NCBI RefSeq assembly: GCF_030704535.1
Contig: NC_081819.1
Location: 19,936,001 to 20,000,000, forward strand
Reading direction: 5' to 3'
DNA: 64,000 bases
Origin: Vitis vinifera
Lineage: Eukaryota; Streptophyta; Magnoliopsida; Vitales; Vitaceae
Shown here: piece by piece, positions 1 to 25,560 of the stretch
How positions within the stretch are numbered: position 1 is the first letter of the stretch
How the letters are laid out: every line of letters starts with the position of its first letter
Program-made: the position numbers and the translations under genes
The notes under the pieces: model-generated
The model's input: the letters and a program-made list of their open reading frames with translations, nothing else
Databases searched by the model: none
Told to the model about the DNA's origin: nothing

Positions 1-59
1 TGAGATGGATTGCAAGCAACTGCATGCACATGAGAAGTCAAACCAGAAATGCCGCAGCG

Positions 60-390
60 GATATGAATCTTCTCATCCAAAACTATGGAATCTTCAATGT
101 CAGGCACGATGTTAGGGTCTTGAGGAGGTGGCGCATACCCATATGCCTCGTATATTTGAGCATACCCAGAATATCCACCATTGAAACCAGTGCAGCAACC
201 ATGCAGACTGTATTCTCCCTGCAAGTCAGATCCGAAAACCATTGGCAGCAACAGAAGAAACTCCCAAGCATTCAAACTGGAAGTATGGATACTAACGTCC
301 AATCTGCCTTCAACAATATGCTATAGGTTGCGTTCTTTGTGCTTCATCATTAAACTTGTTCTCAGCCGTGGGTGACAAACTAGTTGGACT
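60..390 (-). pseudogene. Fragment resembling the low-complexity tail of an RNA-binding protein
   Basis: On the minus strand two short frames suggest a Tyr/Gly/Pro-rich protein tail. One, at roughly 174-60, reads GGYSGYAQIYEAYGYAPPP followed by QDPN. The other, at about 395-310, reads SSPTSLSPTAENKFNDEAQR and hits a stop at about 308. The frames are offset, so the piece is not translatable as one protein. Such tails occur in plant RRM-type RNA-binding proteins, but I cannot name the parent gene and no RRM is visible. The fragment may continue left of the window. The assignment to RNA-binding proteins is weak. Confidence 0.3.
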
Positions 391-399
391 GCTCACAAG

Positions 400-731
400 C
401 CCAAATACAAGACCAGGTAGCCTCTTACTGCAGCCTGTATTATAGCTGCTGCAACGTCCATGCGGGATGAATTAGATCTTCGTGGAGCCTTGAAGCTTCG
501 ACAGCAACGGAGAGGGACCATGTCTAAAGACTTGATGATAAAAGTATAAGTGAAGGCATATTCTTGGAGCTTCTCAAATCTCCCTGACTTGGAGGAATGC
601 CCAGCAGCTAGTTCCACCATCAATAACATTGAAAACAAGGAAGCCTTGGAGACCAGTACAATAGTCAGCCAGTTTTTGGATCTGGTCCGAGCATAGAATG
701 AGAAACTTTGATGGGCAATCTGAGTTTTCAT
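400..731 (-). pseudogene. Open fragment with an IQ-like motif, parent gene unknown
   Basis: An open minus-strand frame of about 110 codons ends in a peptide containing AAAIIQAAVRGYLV, which looks like the core of a calmodulin-binding IQ motif (IQxxxRGxxxR) as found in IQD and BAG-type plant proteins. The second basic residue of the motif is not reached before the frame runs into a stop. The rest of the frame shows no family I recognise. It directly follows the DUF641-like fragment on the same strand. It could be a chance open frame apart from the IQ-like end. Confidence 0.25.
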
Positions 732-759
732 AGGACTGTTACTGTTGAATCTCTGCAGC

Positions 760-924
760 TAAGCAAGATCTTGGGGAGAAACACATATAGGTTTGGGATT
801 TTTCTCCTTGTAAAAATGCTTAAGTTCAGAAAGGTCCTTCAGTTCTTAAGGGGGAGATGTTCATAAAAATCCTGGATATCAGGGCTTCTAGTGCTTCTGG
901 AGTCTGATTAGTGGCCTCTTCCAT
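760..924 (-). pseudogene. DUF641 / GIL1-like gene fragment with internal deletion
   Basis: The minus strand begins with MEEATNQTPEALEALISRIF and MNIS. After a frame change it continues with ELKDLSELKHFYKEKNPKPI and CVSPQD, then a stop. These peptides match the conserved N-terminal block of the plant DUF641 family, which includes GRAVITROPIC IN THE LIGHT 1. In that family, from memory, a segment of about 25-30 residues separates the two blocks. It is missing here, so the copy carries an internal deletion plus a frameshift. The remaining two-thirds of a normal DUF641 protein is absent. It is flanked by unrelated gene pieces, which supports a captured or retrocopied fragment rather than a decayed resident gene. 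Confidence 0.62.
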
Positions 925-1072
925 GGGTTAGGGGTGAACCTTCTGGCTGTTACTCTCGCGGAGTTGAGTTTCTTTCACTCCAGTGGGTAGCATAGCTACT
1001 TCCAATGAAAGGGGAGTAGCTCAATGGGCTTCCAGTTCAGCATAACCTACAACAATTGAACACCACCGACCT

Positions 1073-1315
1073 GTTGCATCCATCTTATTGCAACAGCAGA
1101 TCATTTGCCTGACACCAGGGGTGAAGGTATAAGCAAAGCATGCTCACGGGTCTGACCATCCTTGGAAATACCAGTTTCAAAACCACCAGTGGTAAGAATC
1201 AATGATAAGCCCAATCAGCCTGCGAGGCGCCAGTGATCATGTTCTTGAAGAAGTCAGGATGTCCAGGAGCATCAATGACAGTGCAGTAACATTTAGTGGT
1301 CTCAAACTTCCATGA
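1073..1315 (-). pseudogene. Elongation factor 1-alpha fragment (GTP-binding domain)
   Basis: Minus-strand translation gives [20 protein letters not shown] then [15 protein letters not shown], and after a frame break [20 protein letters not shown] and [15 protein letters not shown]. This is the G-domain of eukaryotic EF-1A, including the DxPGH (G3) and NKMD (G4) GTP-binding motifs. The functional protein has DAPGHRD where this copy has DAPGHPD. At least two frameshifts are present: one after SQADWAYH and one at the position of the usual HALLAFTLGV, where an indel shifts the frame. Only about 80 of roughly 447 residues are represented and no start or stop context is kept, so it is a non-functional fragment. 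Confidence 0.87.
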
Positions 1316-1340
1316 AGTATGCCAATCTCAAACCAACCTC

Positions 1341-1418
1341 AAATGTCCGTCAATCTGTTATTTTCCGAACACAGGGTGGTCAGATTTGCCAAATTTCCTA
1401 ACTCCTTTGGTGCCTCAC
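1341..1418 (-). pseudogene. Short leucine-rich-repeat fragment
   Basis: A single minus-strand peptide, PKELGNLANLTTL followed by CSENNRLTD, fits one to one-and-a-half plant extracellular LRR units (LxxLxxLxxLxLxxNxLTGxIP), as in LRR receptor-like kinases. It is too short to identify the parent. It lies between the At2g33490-like and EF-1alpha pieces on the same strand. Confidence 0.4.
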
Positions 1419-1457
1419 CAGTTACATCATTACCTTTTGACATGAGTGCTCAGAATC

Positions 1458-1731
1458 CCAATTTTGAGGAGCTTCTGATGGTCCAAAAACACGTGGAATC
1501 TTCAGTCTCTGACCACTGGAGGGAGTGAAGAAACTGCGAGGAACAGCTTGCTAAGGGAATGGAAACCGAGATGCTGTACTTGACACCACCAATTTATTTA
1601 TATCAGAAAAGTTGGTGACCACTGGCAGCCAAGGGGGTAGAATGACTTATCAAACTTGAAGGTCTTGAAGTTTCAAAGTCAAACTGGAAGTGGGCCTAGG
1701 AAGTTCATGAAGCTCATTTAATTTGGGCTCC
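1458..1731 (-). pseudogene. Fragment of an At2g33490-like (hydroxyproline-rich, BAR-like) gene
   Basis: On the minus strand the peptide EPKLNELHELPRPTS is followed, through frame shifts and stops, by STASRFPFP and then PRSFFTPSSGQR and GPSEAPQN. The ordered series HELPRP, then ASxxPxP, then PRSFxxPSSGQR is characteristic, from memory, of the C-terminal region of the plant protein family represented by Arabidopsis At2g33490. Two consecutive stops follow the first peptide and the blocks are in different frames, so the fragment is dead. The family's cellular role is poorly known. Confidence 0.58.
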
Positions 1732-2030
1732 CTCATAGATCCTATTCCAGCGTTTCATTGATCCCAAGACCATCTTGGGCTGTATGAAGATTGAAACTTA
1801 GGAAATTGTGTCTGTTAAAAAAAATTGCTCGGTGGGTGGGATCTCTGCATAAGCTGAAACTGAGTTTCAACCCCATGACCAGCTGCCCTCATCTCCGAAC
1901 AATTGAGACTAGTCATGGATTTGGGCATGAGTTTGAAAACCAGAGAGCATCGTCCGTACACATTACCCTGCCCATTTGCTCATCTCTGTTTAGTGTAGGA
2001 CATATTACCCTACATATTGCTCATCTCAGT

Positions 2031-2310
2031 TCAGTGTAGCGCAGGACCAACATAGCCAACAGTTGCCTGGTAGAGTGCAAGTCTAGGGTAAACTATGACT
2101 TCTTGGGAAACAAGATCCTCATCCACAAGAACCCGATAACCATGAAAGTCCCTTACATATAAGCTTGCTTTATGATGGGAGATAACAGAACGATGAGGAG
2201 AAACAGGCCTCAATACGCCTTTCACATCAGTCATTATAGCCAAATATTGAAGTCGAGCCTGCAACCCATCAAATCTGGAAGTCACCTGAAGCCCAACACG
2301 TTTGCCACTA
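2031..2310 (-). pseudogene. Open minus-strand stretch, likely another captured fragment
   Basis: An open frame of about 85-90 codons with protein-like composition contains DFHGYRVLVDEDLVSQEV and ends with a stop at 2031-2033. It shows no motif I can assign. It lies between the USP-kinase and At2g33490-like pieces, on the same strand, in DNA that is less AT-rich than the intergenic background. That is the only reason to regard it as a further host-gene piece. It may equally be spacer. Confidence 0.25.
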
Positions 2311-2362
2311 CGTCACAGAACTGTTACTTCTTCTCGTTTTCACAAAGATTCCCACCATCTCT

Positions 2363-2786
2363 GTTTCAGCCGTTTATCCAAGACAACCCAGTTTGTTTGA
2401 ACACTCTGGACTTCAGCTGCCACTACTCCACATCGTGAGCCAGAGACAATTTTTATCCTCACATTTATCATATCAGGGTCATAAACATCATGGAGTTGAA
2501 GCATCATTTGGGTGCATGTATCTGTAATAACATCCTTCTGCTCTGAGCTGATTCCTGAATGAAACCTCCTCTGACCAGTGGTACAATCACTACTAAATCT
2601 TGGAAAACCCCATAGTTTTTTACCACGGTCGTGAGGAGGGATGACCACCAGAAGCATAATGCAATCCCCGGGCTGAACAACGTGAGCCAAAGCCCACACG
2701 AGAGCCCATCTTGGGATTTCCCTTAAAGCCTTAACAGCAACAACAACAACTTTATTAGCCACATTTGAGCACTTCTGCTTCCCATG
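2363..2786 (-). pseudogene. N-terminal fragment of a USP-domain (inactive) receptor-like kinase
   Basis: The minus strand stays open for about 140 codons containing VVVVAVKALREIP, ALVWALAHVVQPGDCIMLLV, KLWGFPRFSSDC, MMLQLHDVYDPDMINVRIKI and NWVVLDKRLKQ. These are the hallmark blocks of the N-terminal universal-stress-protein-like domain of plant proteins annotated as inactive protein kinase SELMODRAFT_444075-like. Similarity stops abruptly after DKRLKQ and the frame ends a few codons later, so the kinase domain (the greater part of a protein of about 650-750 residues) is missing. Upstream sequence also does not match the family's normal start. It is the best preserved piece in the mosaic, with no stop inside the matching part. 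The family identification is firm; function is lost. Confidence 0.82.
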
Positions 2787-4020
2787 CTTCCAAATGAGGA
2801 CTGCTAGCAGGTATTCTGATAGCTGAAAGCCCCACAGGAGTTGGCTAGCTGAGGATAACACCCTGAGTCTTGATTGATAGCGGACCACGTTCAAAGACTT
2901 CTTTTAAGACCCATTCAGGTGAAGAAAAATCCCCTGTCTCAGGAAACACACTCCACAAAACCATCTTCTGGTCCCAAGCTTTAGGAACTATGCCCATATG
3001 AAACCAAAAGCTCAGGCTGGACCAAAACCCTTCTCCTTGGGGGTATGAATGGCCATTGAGAACAGAATATGAACAGCAAGGGAGCAAGCACAAAAACAGA
3101 GCATCCAAATGAACTTAAGAAAACAATTACATGATCCTCTTCTTATGTTGAAGTCAGTAGGTTCATGTATAGGTGGGAAAATAAGTGGAAATAGGACCCA
3201 AAGACATGACTCAGACACCCAATGGAGAGATAAAAAAAAAAGGAATCGGATCACTCTTAAATCAATTTTTCATGAAGAACAAGGCACAAATTATTATAAC
3301 ACCTACACAACAATGTCAAGAAAATCTACTACAACAAGTATGTGGTCCAGAAAACGCACCTGAGAGGCTCCCCTTCCAGCTGAAATGAGCAAGGAGACTG
3401 CTGTGTTTCTCCTTTTTCTTCAACTAAGCAATGCCCTCTAAAATATCTCTCTCTAAGCTCCCCAAAAACTCACCTCCCTGCTCCCACTCCATCTCTCTCT
3501 CGCAAGCTAAAACCATCACCTCAAAAATCATCTCTCCTCCCTCAAATGCACCCCAGGTTCTTGCAGCTTCTACCCGTCACCCCCTCTCTCCCTCATAAGC
3601 TCCTCCTCACAGAAAAATCTGCCCTCCCTGCTCTGAAAATATCTCTAACGGCTTGCTCTCAGACCACCCTCCTGCAGCCCCAGGTACCGTCCCCACTACC
3701 ATGCAGCTGGCAGCCCAAAAGCACCTTCTCCCAGCTAAGGCCCCCCTCAACAATATCTCCAGGCAGCCTGCTAAAAAAAAACACCACCTCCTGCCAAAGG
3801 TTCTTTTGCACCAATCAGCACCTACCTCCTCTAACAGAAAAAAATACGTGCCTCACTACTGCCAGAATATCCCCATGCAACGTGTCAATCCCTGATTTCT
3901 TACTTCTAGGATCACTCCTCTCATGCCACCCTCTCATACCAGCTGCCAAAAAGCTCCTCAAAGTGGTGAAAATATGCCCTGAAAATACCCTAGACCAAAA
4001 TGAGGGTCTACAATAACCTA
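2787..4020. other. No gene recognised: spacer, then pyrimidine-rich low-complexity stretch
   Basis: 2787-3110 holds an open minus-strand frame (FPETGDFSSPEWVLKEVFERG near 2930) that I cannot assign. It may be one more fragment. From about 3400 to 4015 the plus strand is unusually C/T-rich with recurring pieces such as CCTCCCTGCTC and AAAATATCTCT at irregular spacing, which looks like a degenerate minisatellite. A plus-strand open frame (3546-4016) is rich in Leu/Pro/Ser, as expected from such composition. I do not call it a gene. Base composition drops sharply to AT-rich after 4020. Confidence 0.4.
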
Positions 4021-5898
4021 AATATAAAACAGTTGACATTATTTTTTATCTTTTAATATTTTAAATTTAATAATTTTGCATCTCAAAAAGGTTAAAATAA
4101 GAAGGTTTTGTTTTTTTTAACTTTTTACTTAAAGTAATTTGTTTTTAGGCTTTAAGTTGCTTATTTTTTATGACTTATTATAAATTTTTTATTGAATAAA
4201 AAAATAAAATATTTTTAGTTTTTTTTTAAATAGCAAAAATAATATATCGATTTTTTTTTTACTTTTTAATACTTAATATAATAAAATATTATAAAAAAAA
4301 CAATCTAATAGTTAACACTATTAAATATTAAAGTTATATTTAAAAGTATTTTTTTAAAACACTACTAAACGAACTTTTTTTTAATTGATTAAAAATACTT
4401 TAAACCAAATAATAAAGCTAATTTTATGTTTTTAGGTTCATATTTTGGTCTTGTATTGTTAGGAATTACTTTAGTAACAATTTTTTTTTTAATTAGTAAT
4501 AGGTTTTAGAAAGTGATTATCGTTCAACTCAATTTCTGGATGGTAGTTGTAGAAAATAAATAAAAGCTAATTTTCCAAATGAACCTTTTTAATTGAGATC
4601 ATTAACTATAAAATATATATAAAAAACATCAATAAATATGTTTACCTGAATTAAAAAATAATATACAACAAAAAAATTTTCTTTAAAATAAAAGAAAAAT
4701 AATTAAATTTTAAATAGTATAATAATTTATATAATTAAATATTAACTTATATATATATATATATCAAAACAAAGGAAATTATTTAATTTTTTTTTTAGCA
4801 TCAGCCATTACATAGTTTCATATCAATTTAACAACCTATTTTACCAAATACTTAAATTTTACTTTTAAAACTCGCAATAATTTTAAAATTTATCAAACTC
4901 TCAACCATTTTTCATCAATTATTTTTCATTCTTCTTTAGAACAAATTGTAAATATTTTCCTCTTCCCAACTAGTTTGCCAACAAAAAAGTATTTAAACTA
5001 GGTTTGAAGCAAGTTCCAACATCTTTTGTATATTTTTTTTAATCCATTCACTAATATTATGTTTATTCCACATGAAGTTTACGACTTATTATTTATACAA
5101 CTCTTGACAAATAAAAATAGTTAAAACACATTTAGAAATACTTTAGAATTGATTTAAAAGTGAAAACATTTAAAAAAAAGTGAAAGAAATTTTTTTTTAA
5201 AAAAGAAAAACCTTTATATGGGTCCTAAGGTATAATGTTAGATGACTGTGAGTGCGTTTAGAGGTAGTTTTCGATATTCGGAGGTACAATATCGTTGTTT
5301 TTAAATGTTTGGAGGTATAAGATCAGATGTCCTTAAAAGTATTTAGAGGTGTTGAATGCTCGATCCCTCCTTTTTAAACTCAAAAAAGAGAAAAAAAAAA
5401 TTAAAATACCAAAAGAAAGAAAAGGTAAAAATGCACTTTTAGCATTGTTAAAGATGATTATTTATTTATATATCATTAAAAAAATATAATTTTCTTCAAA
5501 AATTTTATAAAAAAATTATAATCCTAAATGGATGTAAAGAGAAATGAGGTGGATGCAATACATAATTTTTCTTTTTTATTTAAAATAAAATGATTGGGTG
5601 TGAAAGATTTGCATGAAAATATTTAATACGAACCTTTCTAATATTTTTATAATAAAAGATTTTTATTAAAAAGGGAATTTAAATTTTGATGGGAGGCAAT
5701 TATATAATTTGAGAGAATTCTAGGAGGAGTCATTGTAATTTTCCATAACTACAAGGATGTGTAAAAAAACAAATGATAAGTTTGTTAGGATTTGATGTAA
5801 ACACAACATTTTTCTTTCAATTTTTCTTTGAAATGTTTGTTTGAGTTCAGGGAGTTGGCTAGAAAAAGGCAAAAAAAAGAAGAAAAAAAAAAGGCAAA
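4020..5898. other. AT-rich intergenic region
   Basis: Mostly A/T runs with no coding signal. It includes a weak inverted relative of the GGTGGTGTTTG MITE (see 4090-4380) and an irregular run of similar phrases around 5221-5350 (AGGTAC, AGGTAT and TTTAGAGGT recurring). CT-rich tracts at 5905-5935 probably belong to the 5' leader of the NPH3-type gene. Confidence 0.5.
4090..4380 (-). mobile_element. Degenerate inverted relative of the GGTGGTGTTTG MITE family
   Basis: Contains, in reverse orientation, the landmark phrases of the better copies at 23275 and 30600: GACTTATTATAAATTTTTT, TTTAATACTTAATA and AACACTATTAAATATTAA. Terminal repeats are too decayed to set exact ends. Confidence 0.35.
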
Positions 5899-6068: not shown

Positions 6069-8823
6069 ATGGCTTTGATCAGGAAAAAGTCTGAATCATC
6101 CGCTTCTTCTTCTTCTTCTTCTTCTTGGTAAATCTCTATCTCTTTCCTACCCACATACAATGCCATAACTATTATTTTAATATCTGTAAAGAAATAATTG
6201 AAGGAATTTCTCTTTAACCTTTTATTTTTCACTACATAATAATCTTTGGCTAAATTTAGAAATGGGTTTTTTTTTTTTCTAAAAAAAAAATTTTTTAATC
6301 TGGGTGTTGGCATTTCAGGTTGAACATGAGTACATATCCATCAGGTGAGGTGCAGATCCATGTACGTGGCATTCCATTTGTTCTAAACAGAGTAAGAAAG
6401 AAAAAAACCATATCATTAGCATTATCTTTCATGTGTATTCTTTCCCCTTTTAGATTGTTTTTTCAAAACCCTTAAAGCTGCCTTCCATGCACGAGAACAA
6501 AAGTTAAAAGAGTGCAAAAGTTAAAAGAGTGCAAAATCGAAGCATAATATGAGAAAAAAAAAAAATTAAAATCCTTTGATAAATATTTTTAGGGATTTAA
6601 TAAATTCAAATTATTTTCAATTCAAAATTTATGAAATGTGTTTTGAAGTTAGAACAATAGAAGAATAGTTTTCTCAATCAATCATTTTAGAAAGTTTTTT
6701 CTCCCTTAAAAAACTCAACAAAACATTTCAAAATATCTTAGGAATCAAAACTTGTTTTTAAATTAAAGAACAAAAAATAATTTTTAAAAATAAGTTTCAG
6801 AAAATATAATCAAATAGGTCTATGATTTTTATTTTTATTTTTATTTTAAATTGATGACAACAATTTTGACTTATTTTTTAAAAATTATTTGGACAGAAGA
6901 AGGATGAAACAATATTAAGAATTTTTAAAAATAGTTCATTATTTTTAAAAACAGAAAACTGTTTTTAAATCATAAGTAGAAATAATCTCTCAAATTTTAA
7001 TTGTTTTGAAAAATATATTTTCTAAGTTGAAAAGCCGTTTTCTTAATAACAATATACCAACAAATTCTAAGATTTTAACAGAATGGAGACTCTAACATGG
7101 CACCAGATAGGGTGAGTATAGGAACTAGGGCTATGCGTTTATGGAATGCCCTTAATTGTGTAGGAATCGAATGCTATCTGTTTGACAATGGTCATCGATG
7201 GCTGTACAGGAGCTTCTGGCCTTAAGGTCCTCCAGAGTGGCTGCATTACTCAAAGAGAATCCTTGTCAAGATCTCTCGTATGTCCTACGCGACATCCCAG
7301 CTGACCCAGAAACGTTTGAGCTTGTAGTAAGATTCTGCCGTGGCTTTGAGCTCAACCTGTCCACTGACAACATTGTTCCCCTTTGTTGCCTTGCCCACTA
7401 CCTGGGGATGACGGAAAGCCATAGTGTTGATAACCTGTTGAAGAAAGCTCTTACCCTCTTTGGGGAGAGGGTACTCCCGAGTTGGAATGAATCTGTCAAG
7501 GCTCTCCGAGCATCAGAAAAAGTTGCTAAGCAAGCTATGCATCTTGGTTTGGTTGATGCCTGTTTGGAGTCCATCATTGGGAAGGCGCTGGCCGATCCTC
7601 ACCTTCTTGGGCAGCCGATCAGGCCTTGGACGAGTGGTGTTGATATTGAGGATGATGAGGATTATAAGCCAAATGTGCGGAGGAGGCTCTTTGTTATTGA
7701 CTGGGAATCGGAGAGTCTGTCGACATTGTCTCTCCGCCTCTACACGCCTATCATTGATGCAATGGTGAAGCACAAAGTCCCGTCACAGTATGTGGCCGCC
7801 TCGCTTTGTGAGTATGTGAAGAAGTGGGGCTTCTCGGGCAATACAGGAGGGGGAGAGACGTCAATCTACAAGAGGAACGCTCAGAGGGAGGTCATTGAAG
7901 CGGTGGAGAGGCTTTTGCCTCGTGAAAGAGGGCTTGTTCCATGCTCATTATTGTCTGAAATGCTCCGCTTTTCTGTTTCCTTGGAAGCTAGCTCCGACTG
8001 CAAAAATGGGCTTGAGATCAGGATCGGGACGCAGCTCGATCAGGCCACCGTCGAAGACCTCCTGATACCTTCTCAAGGTTATGCCAAGGAAACTCAATAC
8101 GACACCGAGTGTGTGAGGAGGATTCTGAAGAACTTCTACAGAAATAACACTAGCCTAGACATTCCAGGAATCATCAAAGTATCAGAGCTTATGGAAGAGT
8201 TCTTAGTGGAGGTTGCAAGCGATATAGACTTGAGGATAAGCACGTTCGTGTCACTAGCAGAGATGGCAGCAGTTACATCACGAGGAACCCGACGAAGCTC
8301 CGATGGAATGTACAGAGCCATTGACATCTACTTGGACAAGCACAAGCACCTCACGGAGGCTGAGCGGGAGGAGGCGTGCCAAATGCTGGATTACCAGAGG
8401 ATGTCCCCAGAAGCGCTTGAGCATGCGGCTCGTAACGAAAGGCTGCCACTCAGGGTGGTTGTGCAGGTGCTGTTTGTTGGGCAGCTACAGCTGCGGGAAA
8501 CCATCACGAGGAAGGCTGAGGCGGAGGAGGAGGAGGAGGAGGATGAGGAGGAGGAGGAGGAGGAGGGAGGGGGAGTTGAATTGGGTTGCAGTGAAGGAGG
8601 AGGAGTGAGGAGGGAGATGGAGAAGATGGGTAGCAAGGTGATGGAGCTGGAGAGAGAATGCCATGTAATGAGGAAGGAGATAGAGAAGGGGAAGAGTATA
8701 GGAGGGAAGCAAATGAAGGGAGGAGTTAGCATGTGGAAGACAATGAAGAGGAAGTTTGGGTGCATTAGTAGTAAGCATAATTCTAGCTGCCAAGTCAACA
8801 AAAAAAGGGCCCATCCAATATAG
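6069..8823 (+). CDS. NPH3/BTB-family protein (At3g22104-like), three coding exons
   Basis: Model: join(6069..6127, 6319..6391, 7210..8823), 581 aa. A shorter start at 6326 would give 559 aa. The introns have GT donors at 6128 and 6392 and AG acceptors ending at 6318 and 7209, and the frame is kept across both. Exon 1 encodes a Ser-rich leader. Exon 2 gives STYPSGEVQIHVRGIPFVLN, the first strand of a BTB fold, and exon 3 continues the BTB part (LRDIPADPETFELVVRFCRG). The NPH3 domain follows (ARRLLFDLDW-like block, SIYKRNAQREVIEAVERLLP, VASDIDLRISTFVSLAEM, RAIDIYLDKHKHLTEAEREE, RLPLRVVVQVLF). The C-terminus has a Glu run (GAG repeat) and a short coiled coil. Family members act as CUL3 substrate adaptors at the plasma membrane, several of them in phototropism and auxin transport. 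The role of this subclade is not established. The family is certain; the exact N-terminus is not. Confidence 0.9.
8518..8571 (+). repeat. GAG/GGA trinucleotide run encoding poly-Glu
   Basis: Near-perfect GAG/GGA repeat inside the last exon of the NPH3-family gene, encoding a run of Glu with one Asp, then Gly. It is prone to length change while staying in frame. Confidence 0.85.
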
Positions 8824-23551: not shown

Positions 23552-24039
23552 TAAGTCTAGTTATCTAGAAGGTTGACATATCATTTATAAGCCTAGAACT
23601 CCAATGGGTAAGAAATTTCAACAAACACTTTCCCTTGTTTTCTTTAAACCATAGGCTTTCAAGCATTTTACCACTTTCAAAATAACAAAGAATATTTATG
23701 TATGGTTCAAAAACCAAAGCATCTCCATGAGAATGTTACATGTTTCTATAATCTAAACTGTTCAAAGCAAATCCAAAGCACATGCATGATAATCATGCAT
23801 GTTTCTATCTCTAATATCAATTCTAAGATCAAGATTTGACCATCTTATCTGAAAATCAATTAATGCTCAATGAGAGTTGACCAAACTTTTATGGCATCTG
23901 ACATCACACCCCACATGACTGTTTTAAAAATCATCATTTGGATGACTCATTTCCGGGTTTAAGAGCAACATTATTGCACCCCAACAAATGAATTTGTACC
24001 CATTTGTTATCAATCATATAAATATTGTTTGCTCTAAAT
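23552..24039. other. Intergenic, nothing recognised
   Basis: Moderately AT-rich sequence between the MITE and the tandem array. No open frame or structure worth naming. Confidence 0.4.
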
Positions 24040-25560
24040 CTAACTAATGGACCCTTTCAATTTTAAAACGTAGAAAATGTTTACGATGCTATATATGTAT
24101 GATATCTTTTTAATCATGTAGACATATTTTAAAGTCATAAAAATTTGTACGTAGACTTGGAGTGAACAATAATCATGTATGAAAGAGTTCATTATAATAT
24201 CACTCTACTCATTTTTGGACTAGATTGATCATCTTTAAGAACCTGTACAAGCATCTCTTATCAAAGTTAATGAACTTTTCTTAATCATATAAACATATTT
24301 TAAAGTTGTAAGGGCTCATTAGACTCAAAGCGGATAATATTTAAATGGTTGAAAAGGTTTATTACAACATCACTATATTCATTTTTAGACTAGGTTGATC
24401 ATCTTTAAGAACCTATAGAACCATCTCCCATCAAACAAACAAAAACTACAACTCCAAGACTAAAACATCTATAAGAGATGTTCAATATGGAAGTTAGAAT
24501 ATGATCATCTAAACTAATCAAAGCAATCTTCACTCTAGAATATGATATCATATGGTGGGTTGATAATGGATTTTATAATAGAAACAAATTTCCACAACAA
24601 CCCTTCATGCGATGAAGCATTGAGCAATGAATTCGAGTCCCTTTCCTAAACCCATCAAATCCCATCAACCCACAAGACCTTTTTCAAGTAGTGCATTTAT
24701 AACAATCCCTTCTTAATCATGTATATATATATATATATTGTTCTCTTTGGGCCTAATTGGCCTTTTCAGTTTTAAAAGGCGGATTTTTTTTTTGTTATTG
24801 TATATGTATGAACTTCTCTTAACTATATAAACATATTTTAAAGTCATAAAATCTATTGGATTTAAAGTGAACAATCTACATGATTGAAAAAGTTAGTTAC
24901 AACATCACGTTATTCATTTTTGGATCATGTTGATCATCTTTAAGAACTTATACAATCATCTCCTATCAAACAAACAAAAACTACAACTCCAAAAGTAAAA
25001 GCTCTATAAGATATGCTCAACGTGGGAAATAGAATAGGATTATTTAAACTAATCAAAGCAATCTTCACTTTAGAATATTATATCAGAGTGGATTGGTAAT
25101 GGATTTTATAGTATAAAAAAAAAAATCCATGGCAATCCCTCATGTGATGAGGTGCTAAGCAATGAATCCAAGTCTCTTTCCCAAACCCATCAAACCCCAT
25201 CAACCTACAAATCATTTTCTAATTAGTGCATTTGTAACTATCCGTTATCAATCATATAAAATTTGTTCACTTTAAATCTAATGGGCTCTTTCAATTTCAA
25301 AGGCGGGGAAATTGTCTACTACTATATATATGAGTTCCTTTCAATCATGTAAACAAGTTTTAATATCATAAGGATCCATTGGACTCACGGTGGACAATAT
25401 CTACATAGTTGAAAGAGTTCGTTACCACATTACTCTATTCAGTTTTGGGCTAGCTTAATCATCTTCAAGAGCCTATACAACCATCTCCCATCAAACCAAC
25501 AGAAAGTACAACTCCAAGGCCCAAATGCTTAGAGATGTTCAATATGGGAGCTAGCTAGCT
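24040..25560 (+). repeat. Tandem array of about 530-bp units (about three copies, one with an internal 170-bp duplication)
   Basis: The phrase TTGATCATCTTTAAGAAC or a variant occurs at 24225, 24395, 24930 and 25455, that is at spacings of 170, 535 and 525 bp. Each unit carries, in order, ACATATTTTAAAGTCATAA, a block on gaps to GTGAACAATAT, TCACTCTATTC-like, CCATCTCCCATCAAAC, ACTACAACTCCAAG, AATCAAAGCAATCTTCACT and AAACCCATCAAATCCCATCA. The 5' part resembles, from memory, a widespread plant repeat that reads GGACAATATCT just before a TTACAAATGGTATCAGAGC-type end, though the latter is absent here. Non-coding. Confidence 0.75.

Follow-up and report, generated by a model that had tools for sequence, protein, structure and literature searches.

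Host-gene capture by plant long terminal repeat (LTR) retrotransposons has been described in several forms. Bs1 of maize contains segments of three host genes (PMC13317346), captured as exons only (PMC4717578), and GmaRetroS15 of soybean, a terminal-repeat retrotransposon in miniature (TRIM), carries host-gene exons without introns in a small LTR element (PMC4717578). In rice and sorghum, LTR retrotransposons mobilise host genes at scale (PMC3726574). Abnormal template switching has been described for BARE-2 and the long form of Veju (PMC13317346). As for size and coding capacity, Ogre LTRs measure 1.9-6.5 kb (PMC6431247), and Tat elements have a dual RNase H arrangement (PMC5348765). Here we describe a 64,000-nucleotide stretch of Vitis vinifera (RefSeq assembly GCF_030704535.1, NC_081819.1, positions 19,936,001 to 20,000,000; hereafter the window), whose left edge lies within a solo LTR holding a mosaic of many host-gene pieces.

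The locus resembles Bs1 in its intron-less host exons, its several donors and its LTR-retrotransposon carrier. Unlike the three-gene case of Bs1, it comprises 15 pieces from 14 places, which sit inside the LTR and are duplicated with it; the host segments of Bs1 lie between its LTRs. GmaRetroS15 is a miniature element with a single host gene, whereas the present mosaic occupies a giant LTR, and the genes captured in rice and sorghum are, according to a figure legend, drawn as boxes apart from the LTRs (PMC3726574); no mention of 'intron' or 'template' was found in the main text of that article. With BARE-2, the locus would share the entry of foreign sequence into an LTR by abnormal template switching, yet for BARE-2 and the Veju long form the donor was, in the account of PMC13317346, another retrotransposon or unknown sequence and not many host mRNAs. 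The Ogre and Tat passages of PMC6431247 and PMC5348765 do not mention host-mRNA content of the LTR. We found no report of LTRs built from many host-mRNA pieces in a literature survey judged mostly by titles and the start of abstracts, which is no proof of absence. Exon-only capture as such is already known.

The original prediction, made from the window sequence alone, had placed a same-strand mosaic of at least four host-gene fragments at positions 1-3110. It attributed this mosaic to a Helitron or Pack-MULE, or else to chained template switching during retrotransposition. We searched the genome to which the window belongs (495.6 Mb, 21 contigs; the window is C15:19936001-20000000) and located borders by reading the sequence to its left, where positions carry a minus sign (e.g. 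window -1608). The prediction had proposed looking leftward for Helitron or MULE ends; what lies there instead are LTR-type ends and a 5-bp duplication, ATAAC. Rather than 1-3110, the unit spans window -1608 to 4012 (C15:19934392-19940012; 5,621 bp), its left border being L009:8392 (C15:19934392), so that the window holds its right part and the start lies outside. Its place in the window is as follows:

Window 1-4012, minus strand: right 4,012 bp of the solo LTR, whose sense strand is the minus strand, with the 5' end at 4012.
Window 2964-4012, minus strand: 5' part of the LTR without recognised host pieces; the subpart 2964-3415 is recurrent in the genome.
Window 4013-4017, unstranded: right copy of the target-site duplication ATAAC; the left copy stands immediately before L009:8392.

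The termini (TGTGGACCC...GGGTCTACA) are of the TG..CA type with a short inverted repeat (TGT..ACA); the sense-strand terminus TGTAGACCC lies at window 4012 and the opposite one, TGTGGACCCCGC, at L009:8392. When the unit was compared with itself, no long repeats, direct or inverted, were found. The unit is a solo LTR, since full-length relatives show it as an LTR and the focal copy has one LTR with its own duplication. That the mosaic sits inside an LTR was beyond view from the window sequence alone.

Two relatives underlie this identification. The full-length element at C15:1240846-1262179 (hereafter the C15 element) has outer flanks ATACG on both sides and a pair of direct repeats separated by 18.0 kb. 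These repeats, compared over 2,453 bp, show 99.6% identity and diverge within one base of the TGT..ACA LTR end. Its 5' LTR measures 3,335 bp, and directly after the upstream repeat comes a stretch resembling a primer-binding site (PBS), AAATGGCGACTCCACTGGGGAT. In 6 kb of its interior (L041) we identified PF00078 (reverse transcriptase, RT), followed by PF17917 (RT_RNaseH), PF13456 (RVT_3), PF17921 (H2C2, the integrase zinc finger) and PF00665 (rve, the integrase core), in that order; the RT has an open frame to itself, and the other four domains share the next. The second relative, on contig C12 (hereafter the C12 element), has direct repeats at L022:2420-7261 and L021:2520-7350 with 99.09% identity over 4,842 bp. 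Its first LTR is followed by a PBS near-identical to that of the C15 element and its second is preceded by a purine tract, GAAGAGGGGCATATT; the PBS-like stretch was thus noted at both elements and the purine tract at C12 only. Both C12 LTRs carry the captured stretch corresponding to window 1238-1711, at 92% identity, i.e. the mosaic is present in twin LTRs. A gag-like open reading frame of the C12 element gave no Pfam family.

Beyond these two elements, matching 5-bp flanks were found in seven of nine units with both ends located, namely the C15 element and six solo units each with its own pair (the focal one, a unit on C16 running from L011:5672 to L012:1265, L018, L019, L023 and L027). The C16, L018, L019, L023 and L027 units have similar ends and differing interiors. 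Genome-wide, the LTR-end/PBS junction pattern had 637 matches at ≤3 mismatches (reversed-pattern control, 0), and the 5'-terminal motif had 254 (control pattern, 0); among 100 of these 254 places listed, 5'-end pairs 8-30 kb apart were on the same strand in eight cases versus one on opposite strands. The focal LTR's outer parts likewise turn up at other places. Of 39 such places listed for window 2964-3415, most match it or parts of it at 75-92%; the stretch -750 to -321 matches other places at 69-96%, and -1608 to 0 as a query gave at least 45 matches, with 40 of 3,652 first-look candidates scored. Between these outer parts lies the capture zone, window -329 to 2783.

The family appears to be a large Ty3/gypsy, Tat-like retrotransposon, as judged from its domains: the C15 element has the Tat order RT, RNase H, second RNase H, integrase, and its RVT_3 domain would correspond to the archaeal-type RNase H (aRNH). 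Family LTRs measure 3.3-6.1 kb here, inside the Ogre giant-LTR range, and the giant LTRs, RT_RNaseH plus RVT_3 and the long interior are all Ogre/Tat-like. The PBS-like stretch beginning AAATGGCGACTCC.. of the C15 element may be complementary to tRNA-Arg, the PBS match expected of the Ogre lineage; no tRNA genes for comparison were found in the window or the 20 loci scanned.

Some copies of the family are arranged in other ways. At L021:7310-7400 (C12:17350309-17350399), only ~5 bp separate the 3' LTR of the C12 element from the 3' end of another LTR in opposite orientation, and with this opposed end and its mismatched outer flanks the copy looks rearranged. At L017:502-8900 (C3), two family LTR 3' ends form inverted repeats of ~0.8 kb (75%) that face outward; the sequence between them includes a relative of window 2362-3413 (92%). 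At C3:145349-163481, both 5'-end pattern matches have an LTR-PBS junction ~4 kb on (C3:149377 and C3:163455), as would be expected if LTR and interior alternated in tandem (LTR-interior-LTR-interior).

Within the 3,113 bp of the capture zone, we traced 15 pieces of 45-410 bp, covering 2,036 bp, to 14 donor places on 12 contigs, at identities of 82-96%; at least ten unrelated plant genes are represented. From left to right, and including a probable piece left out of the count of 15, they are:

Window -329 to -131, LTR sense: Methyltransf_29 gene piece; donor on C4, 95 and 91%.
Window -96 to 119 (1-119 inside the window), minus: Kelch-repeat gene piece; C15:22696977-22697193, 91%.
Window 109-182, minus: RNA-binding-protein-like tail; C19:6429463-6429536, 93%.
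Window 342-428, minus: piece of an unnamed gene; C12:12482055-12482140, 90%.
Window 412-464, minus: IQ-motif gene piece; C16:20896413-20896465, 87%.
Window 457-505, minus: piece of an unnamed gene; C3:19286547-19286595, 86%.
Window 503-581, minus: piece of an unnamed gene; C10:26862183-26862261, 95%.
Window 599-697, minus: alpha-tubulin piece; C3:8435816, 89%, plus paralogues; PDB phmmer E 4e-7.
Window 690-797, minus: first part of a stretch from an unnamed gene on C6; C6:20316184-20316326, 90%.
Window 846-924, minus: DUF641/GIL1-like piece; C12:17722474-17722552, 92%; donor open reading frame DUF641, E 9.2e-17.
Window 923-967, minus: second part of the C6 stretch (unnamed gene); C6:20316184-20316326, 91%.
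Window 1084-1312, minus: EF-1alpha piece; C8:14580349-14580579, 91%; GTP_EFTU E 2.3e-7, PDB search E 4.9e-11.
Window 1347-1436, minus: leucine-rich repeat (LRR) gene piece; C7:23722780-23722869, 82%; donor LRR_4 E 4.7e-9.
Window 1460-1727, minus: At2g33490-like piece; C1:26764133-26764400, 91%.
Window 2163-2262, minus: probable captured piece; paralogous matches on C17, C12 and C2, 78-80%.
Window 2374-2783, minus: USP-kinase piece, three spliced exons; C11:1963017-1964090, 94, 96 and 90%.

All six genes named in the original prediction are among them. Its EF-1alpha, DUF641/GIL1 and LRR pieces are borne out by donor and Pfam evidence, and its At2g33490-like, USP-kinase and RNA-binding-protein pieces were likewise found; its 'at least four' fragments was an undercount. 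For the donors C1:26764133 (At2g33490-like) and C11:1963017-1964090 (USP-kinase) we follow the names of that prediction. The donor C19:6429463, which gave no Pfam match, we take to be RNA-binding-protein-like. The USP-kinase donor had no match in a PDB search (PDB searches of the window covered its three minus frames). The C6 stretch is continuous in its donor and split in the LTR by a stretch including the DUF641 piece; we propose that the chain either left this template and returned, or took a later insert.

Three donor introns with GT..AG borders (364, 576 and 85 bp) were identified for the focal LTR, and all three are precisely absent from it, with 37, 37 and 38 of 40 bases matching at the respective spliced junctions; those of 85 and 576 bp belong to the USP-kinase donor. 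For five donor introns, these three and two missing from the C12 LTR, GT..AG gives the gene sense, which is the LTR sense in every case. All six pieces named in the prediction lie in the minus-strand (LTR) sense. Pfam scans in six frames (E≤0.1) on seven capture-bearing LTRs (the focal one as window 1-4050, and L022, L023, L019, L016, L027 and L018; L018 included ~0.9 kb of flank, and the shared 3' end was largely outside the scanned part of the others) returned 24 rows, all in sense frames and none antisense. Ten of them, from eight families, exceed the curated cutoff (GTP_EFTU, Metallophos_2, DUF641, Methyltransf_29, FAD_binding_7, XS, MLLE and Aminotran_1_2). Window 1-4050 contributed EF-1alpha and weak LRR_4 and IQ rows in minus frames; its plus frames gave none. 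The LTR of the pol-bearing C15 element yielded one weak sense row, GIP1_N, its first 883 bp being scanned in sense frames only; short, piecewise matches to this LTR are numerous at other genomic places. The absence of the donor introns shows that the captured pieces came from spliced RNA.

These observations bear directly on the transposon part of the predicted origin, namely the capture of genomic DNA from several genes by a Helitron or Pack-MULE. Gene-fragment mosaics are known from both (PMC13317346, PMC6431247), yet the three precisely absent introns, the 24 of 24 sense rows, the TGT..ACA ends with a 5-bp duplication, and the occurrence of relatives as LTR pairs around a PBS, in one case with pol as well, render this origin extremely improbable. 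Chained template switching in retrotransposition is the part of the predicted origin that stands. As candidate element classes, we rejected a Helitron (5' TC, 3' CTRR with hairpin, no duplication) on the ends, duplication and intron loss, and a Pack-MULE (long terminal inverted repeats, 9-11-bp duplication, introns kept) on the lack of a long inverted repeat, the 5-bp duplication and the absent introns. A new transposon with terminal inverted repeats and a 5-bp duplication was dropped on finding direct LTR pairs, PBS and pol, and a TRIM, being miniature with short LTRs, does not agree with a focal LTR of 5,621 bp.

The junctions between pieces provide further evidence. At all six abutting or overlapping donor junctions, the neighbouring donors share runs of bases (11, 14, 5, 2, 4 and 2), which are present in the LTR as well as in both donors; for randomly placed junctions of these donors the mean is 0.68, and the observed sum was reached in 0 of 200,000 random sets. 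This matters for the idea that separate processed-pseudogene insertions, of the long interspersed nuclear element (LINE) type, or complementary DNA filler insertions accumulated in an old LTR. Such insertions would likewise yield intron-less pieces, but the pieces seen are internal stretches of 45-410 bp, several of them abutting with shared bases, no poly(A) was noticed in the window sequence by eye, independent events would be expected in both orientations, and the C12 mosaic is present in both LTRs. We therefore consider separate insertions highly improbable.

Comparison between LTRs addresses how often capture occurred. Stretches of the focal mosaic found in other LTRs are 85-99% alike and have different neighbouring pieces, and at their shared 3' ends those LTRs resemble the focal LTR at no more than 77-80%; among the best candidates, the longest match of the focal stretch outside the window is the C16 LTR. 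A chimera might first have arisen as a host transcript or retrogene and then been taken up by an LTR element in one event, in line with the identified pieces being all sense and many of them contiguous. Possible loci of this kind are C18:36604084-36604375, a partial match that spans the EF-1alpha piece and beyond, and C18:26091924 and C1:6959295, which match the methyltransferase piece without its intron; a further partial match to the focal LTR lies at C14:15557063. Against such an origin, shared pieces occur in differing combinations across LTRs, and the sets of matches obtained with the C12 and C15 LTRs differ again. Because of these differing combinations, pieces were apparently added or exchanged repeatedly, and uptake in a single event is very unlikely.

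The explanation we favour, with a probability of about 0.88, is that the template was switched repeatedly between element RNA and spliced host mRNAs, and that the product became fixed in the LTR and was copied to both LTRs. During minus-strand DNA synthesis on element RNA, the enzyme would repeatedly leave this template, copy short stretches of co-packaged spliced host mRNAs, move between them at short shared sequences and then return to the element RNA; such switching would be expected to give sense, spliced, piecewise inserts. Plus-strand synthesis and strand transfer would then place the mosaic in both LTRs, as at C12, where both carry the patch, presumably because it lies in LTR sequence (U3, possibly R) that is copied once and duplicated. 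Later insertions would inherit the mosaic and, as element RNAs recombine, gain pieces or exchange them, and the focal copy would subsequently have lost its interior and one LTR through LTR-LTR recombination.

Several observations weigh against this explanation. L016 has no matching target duplication, the outer flanks of the C12 element are unequal (GCACC/AATTT), and the C15 copy may itself be defective because its RT and RNase H-integrase frames are separate. Of the 3,113 bp of the capture zone, 1,077 have no assigned donor; four of the 14 donor places are without a gene name and three are named only tentatively, in part after the original prediction. Since present donors match at 82-96%, the true donors may in some cases have been paralogues of these, or the places may themselves be captured copies. 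The C12 LTR lacks two more donor introns, with less clean junctions: 35 of 40 bases match for the donor C1:11227, and 28 of 40 at the best script-chosen GT..AG junction for C4:19649, where the junction read by hand, GGTTAG|GTGACCAGG, differs from the C12 LTR by a small indel. Some Pfam rows depend on one another, as pieces are shared between LTRs: the EF-1alpha piece is common to L019, L022 and the focal LTR, and the methyltransferase piece of L016 is also that of the focal LTR. Finally, the junction count took only abutting or overlapping pairs, which biases it toward shared bases; this bias does not explain the 11- and 14-base runs, as runs of 11 or more occur in 1.5e-5 of random junctions.

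Elsewhere in the window, we noted a 545-aa open frame at 7186-8823 (plus strand), which starts ~3.2 kb beyond the right end of the solo LTR and has an NPH3-type look by eye, and a diverged direct-repeat array at 24016-25525, with families of 525- and 535-bp spacing that are 64-85% alike.

Taken together, our findings suggest that such elements can build up giant LTRs by copying host mRNA. Host-gene capture is thereby placed in the LTR, the promoter-bearing part that is copied to both ends in each round, and the great length and rapid change of Tat/Ogre LTRs thereby gain an origin that can be tested. From the pieces one would be able to read which host mRNAs the reverse transcriptase encountered, together with its switch points. 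More tentatively, and at somewhat less than even odds, LTR capture may be the usual route of growth and turnover in the Tat/Ogre-like lineage, most family LTRs then being ever-changing collections of pieces of spliced host mRNA, assembled by microhomology-guided switching and reshuffled between elements. If so, this would explain huge LTRs that share little but their ends, and the sense pieces could expose donor genes to element-derived small RNAs. Such LTRs can also mislead annotation, producing spurious gene calls and apparent chimeric genes, and they constitute a source of sequence that might affect the donor genes.

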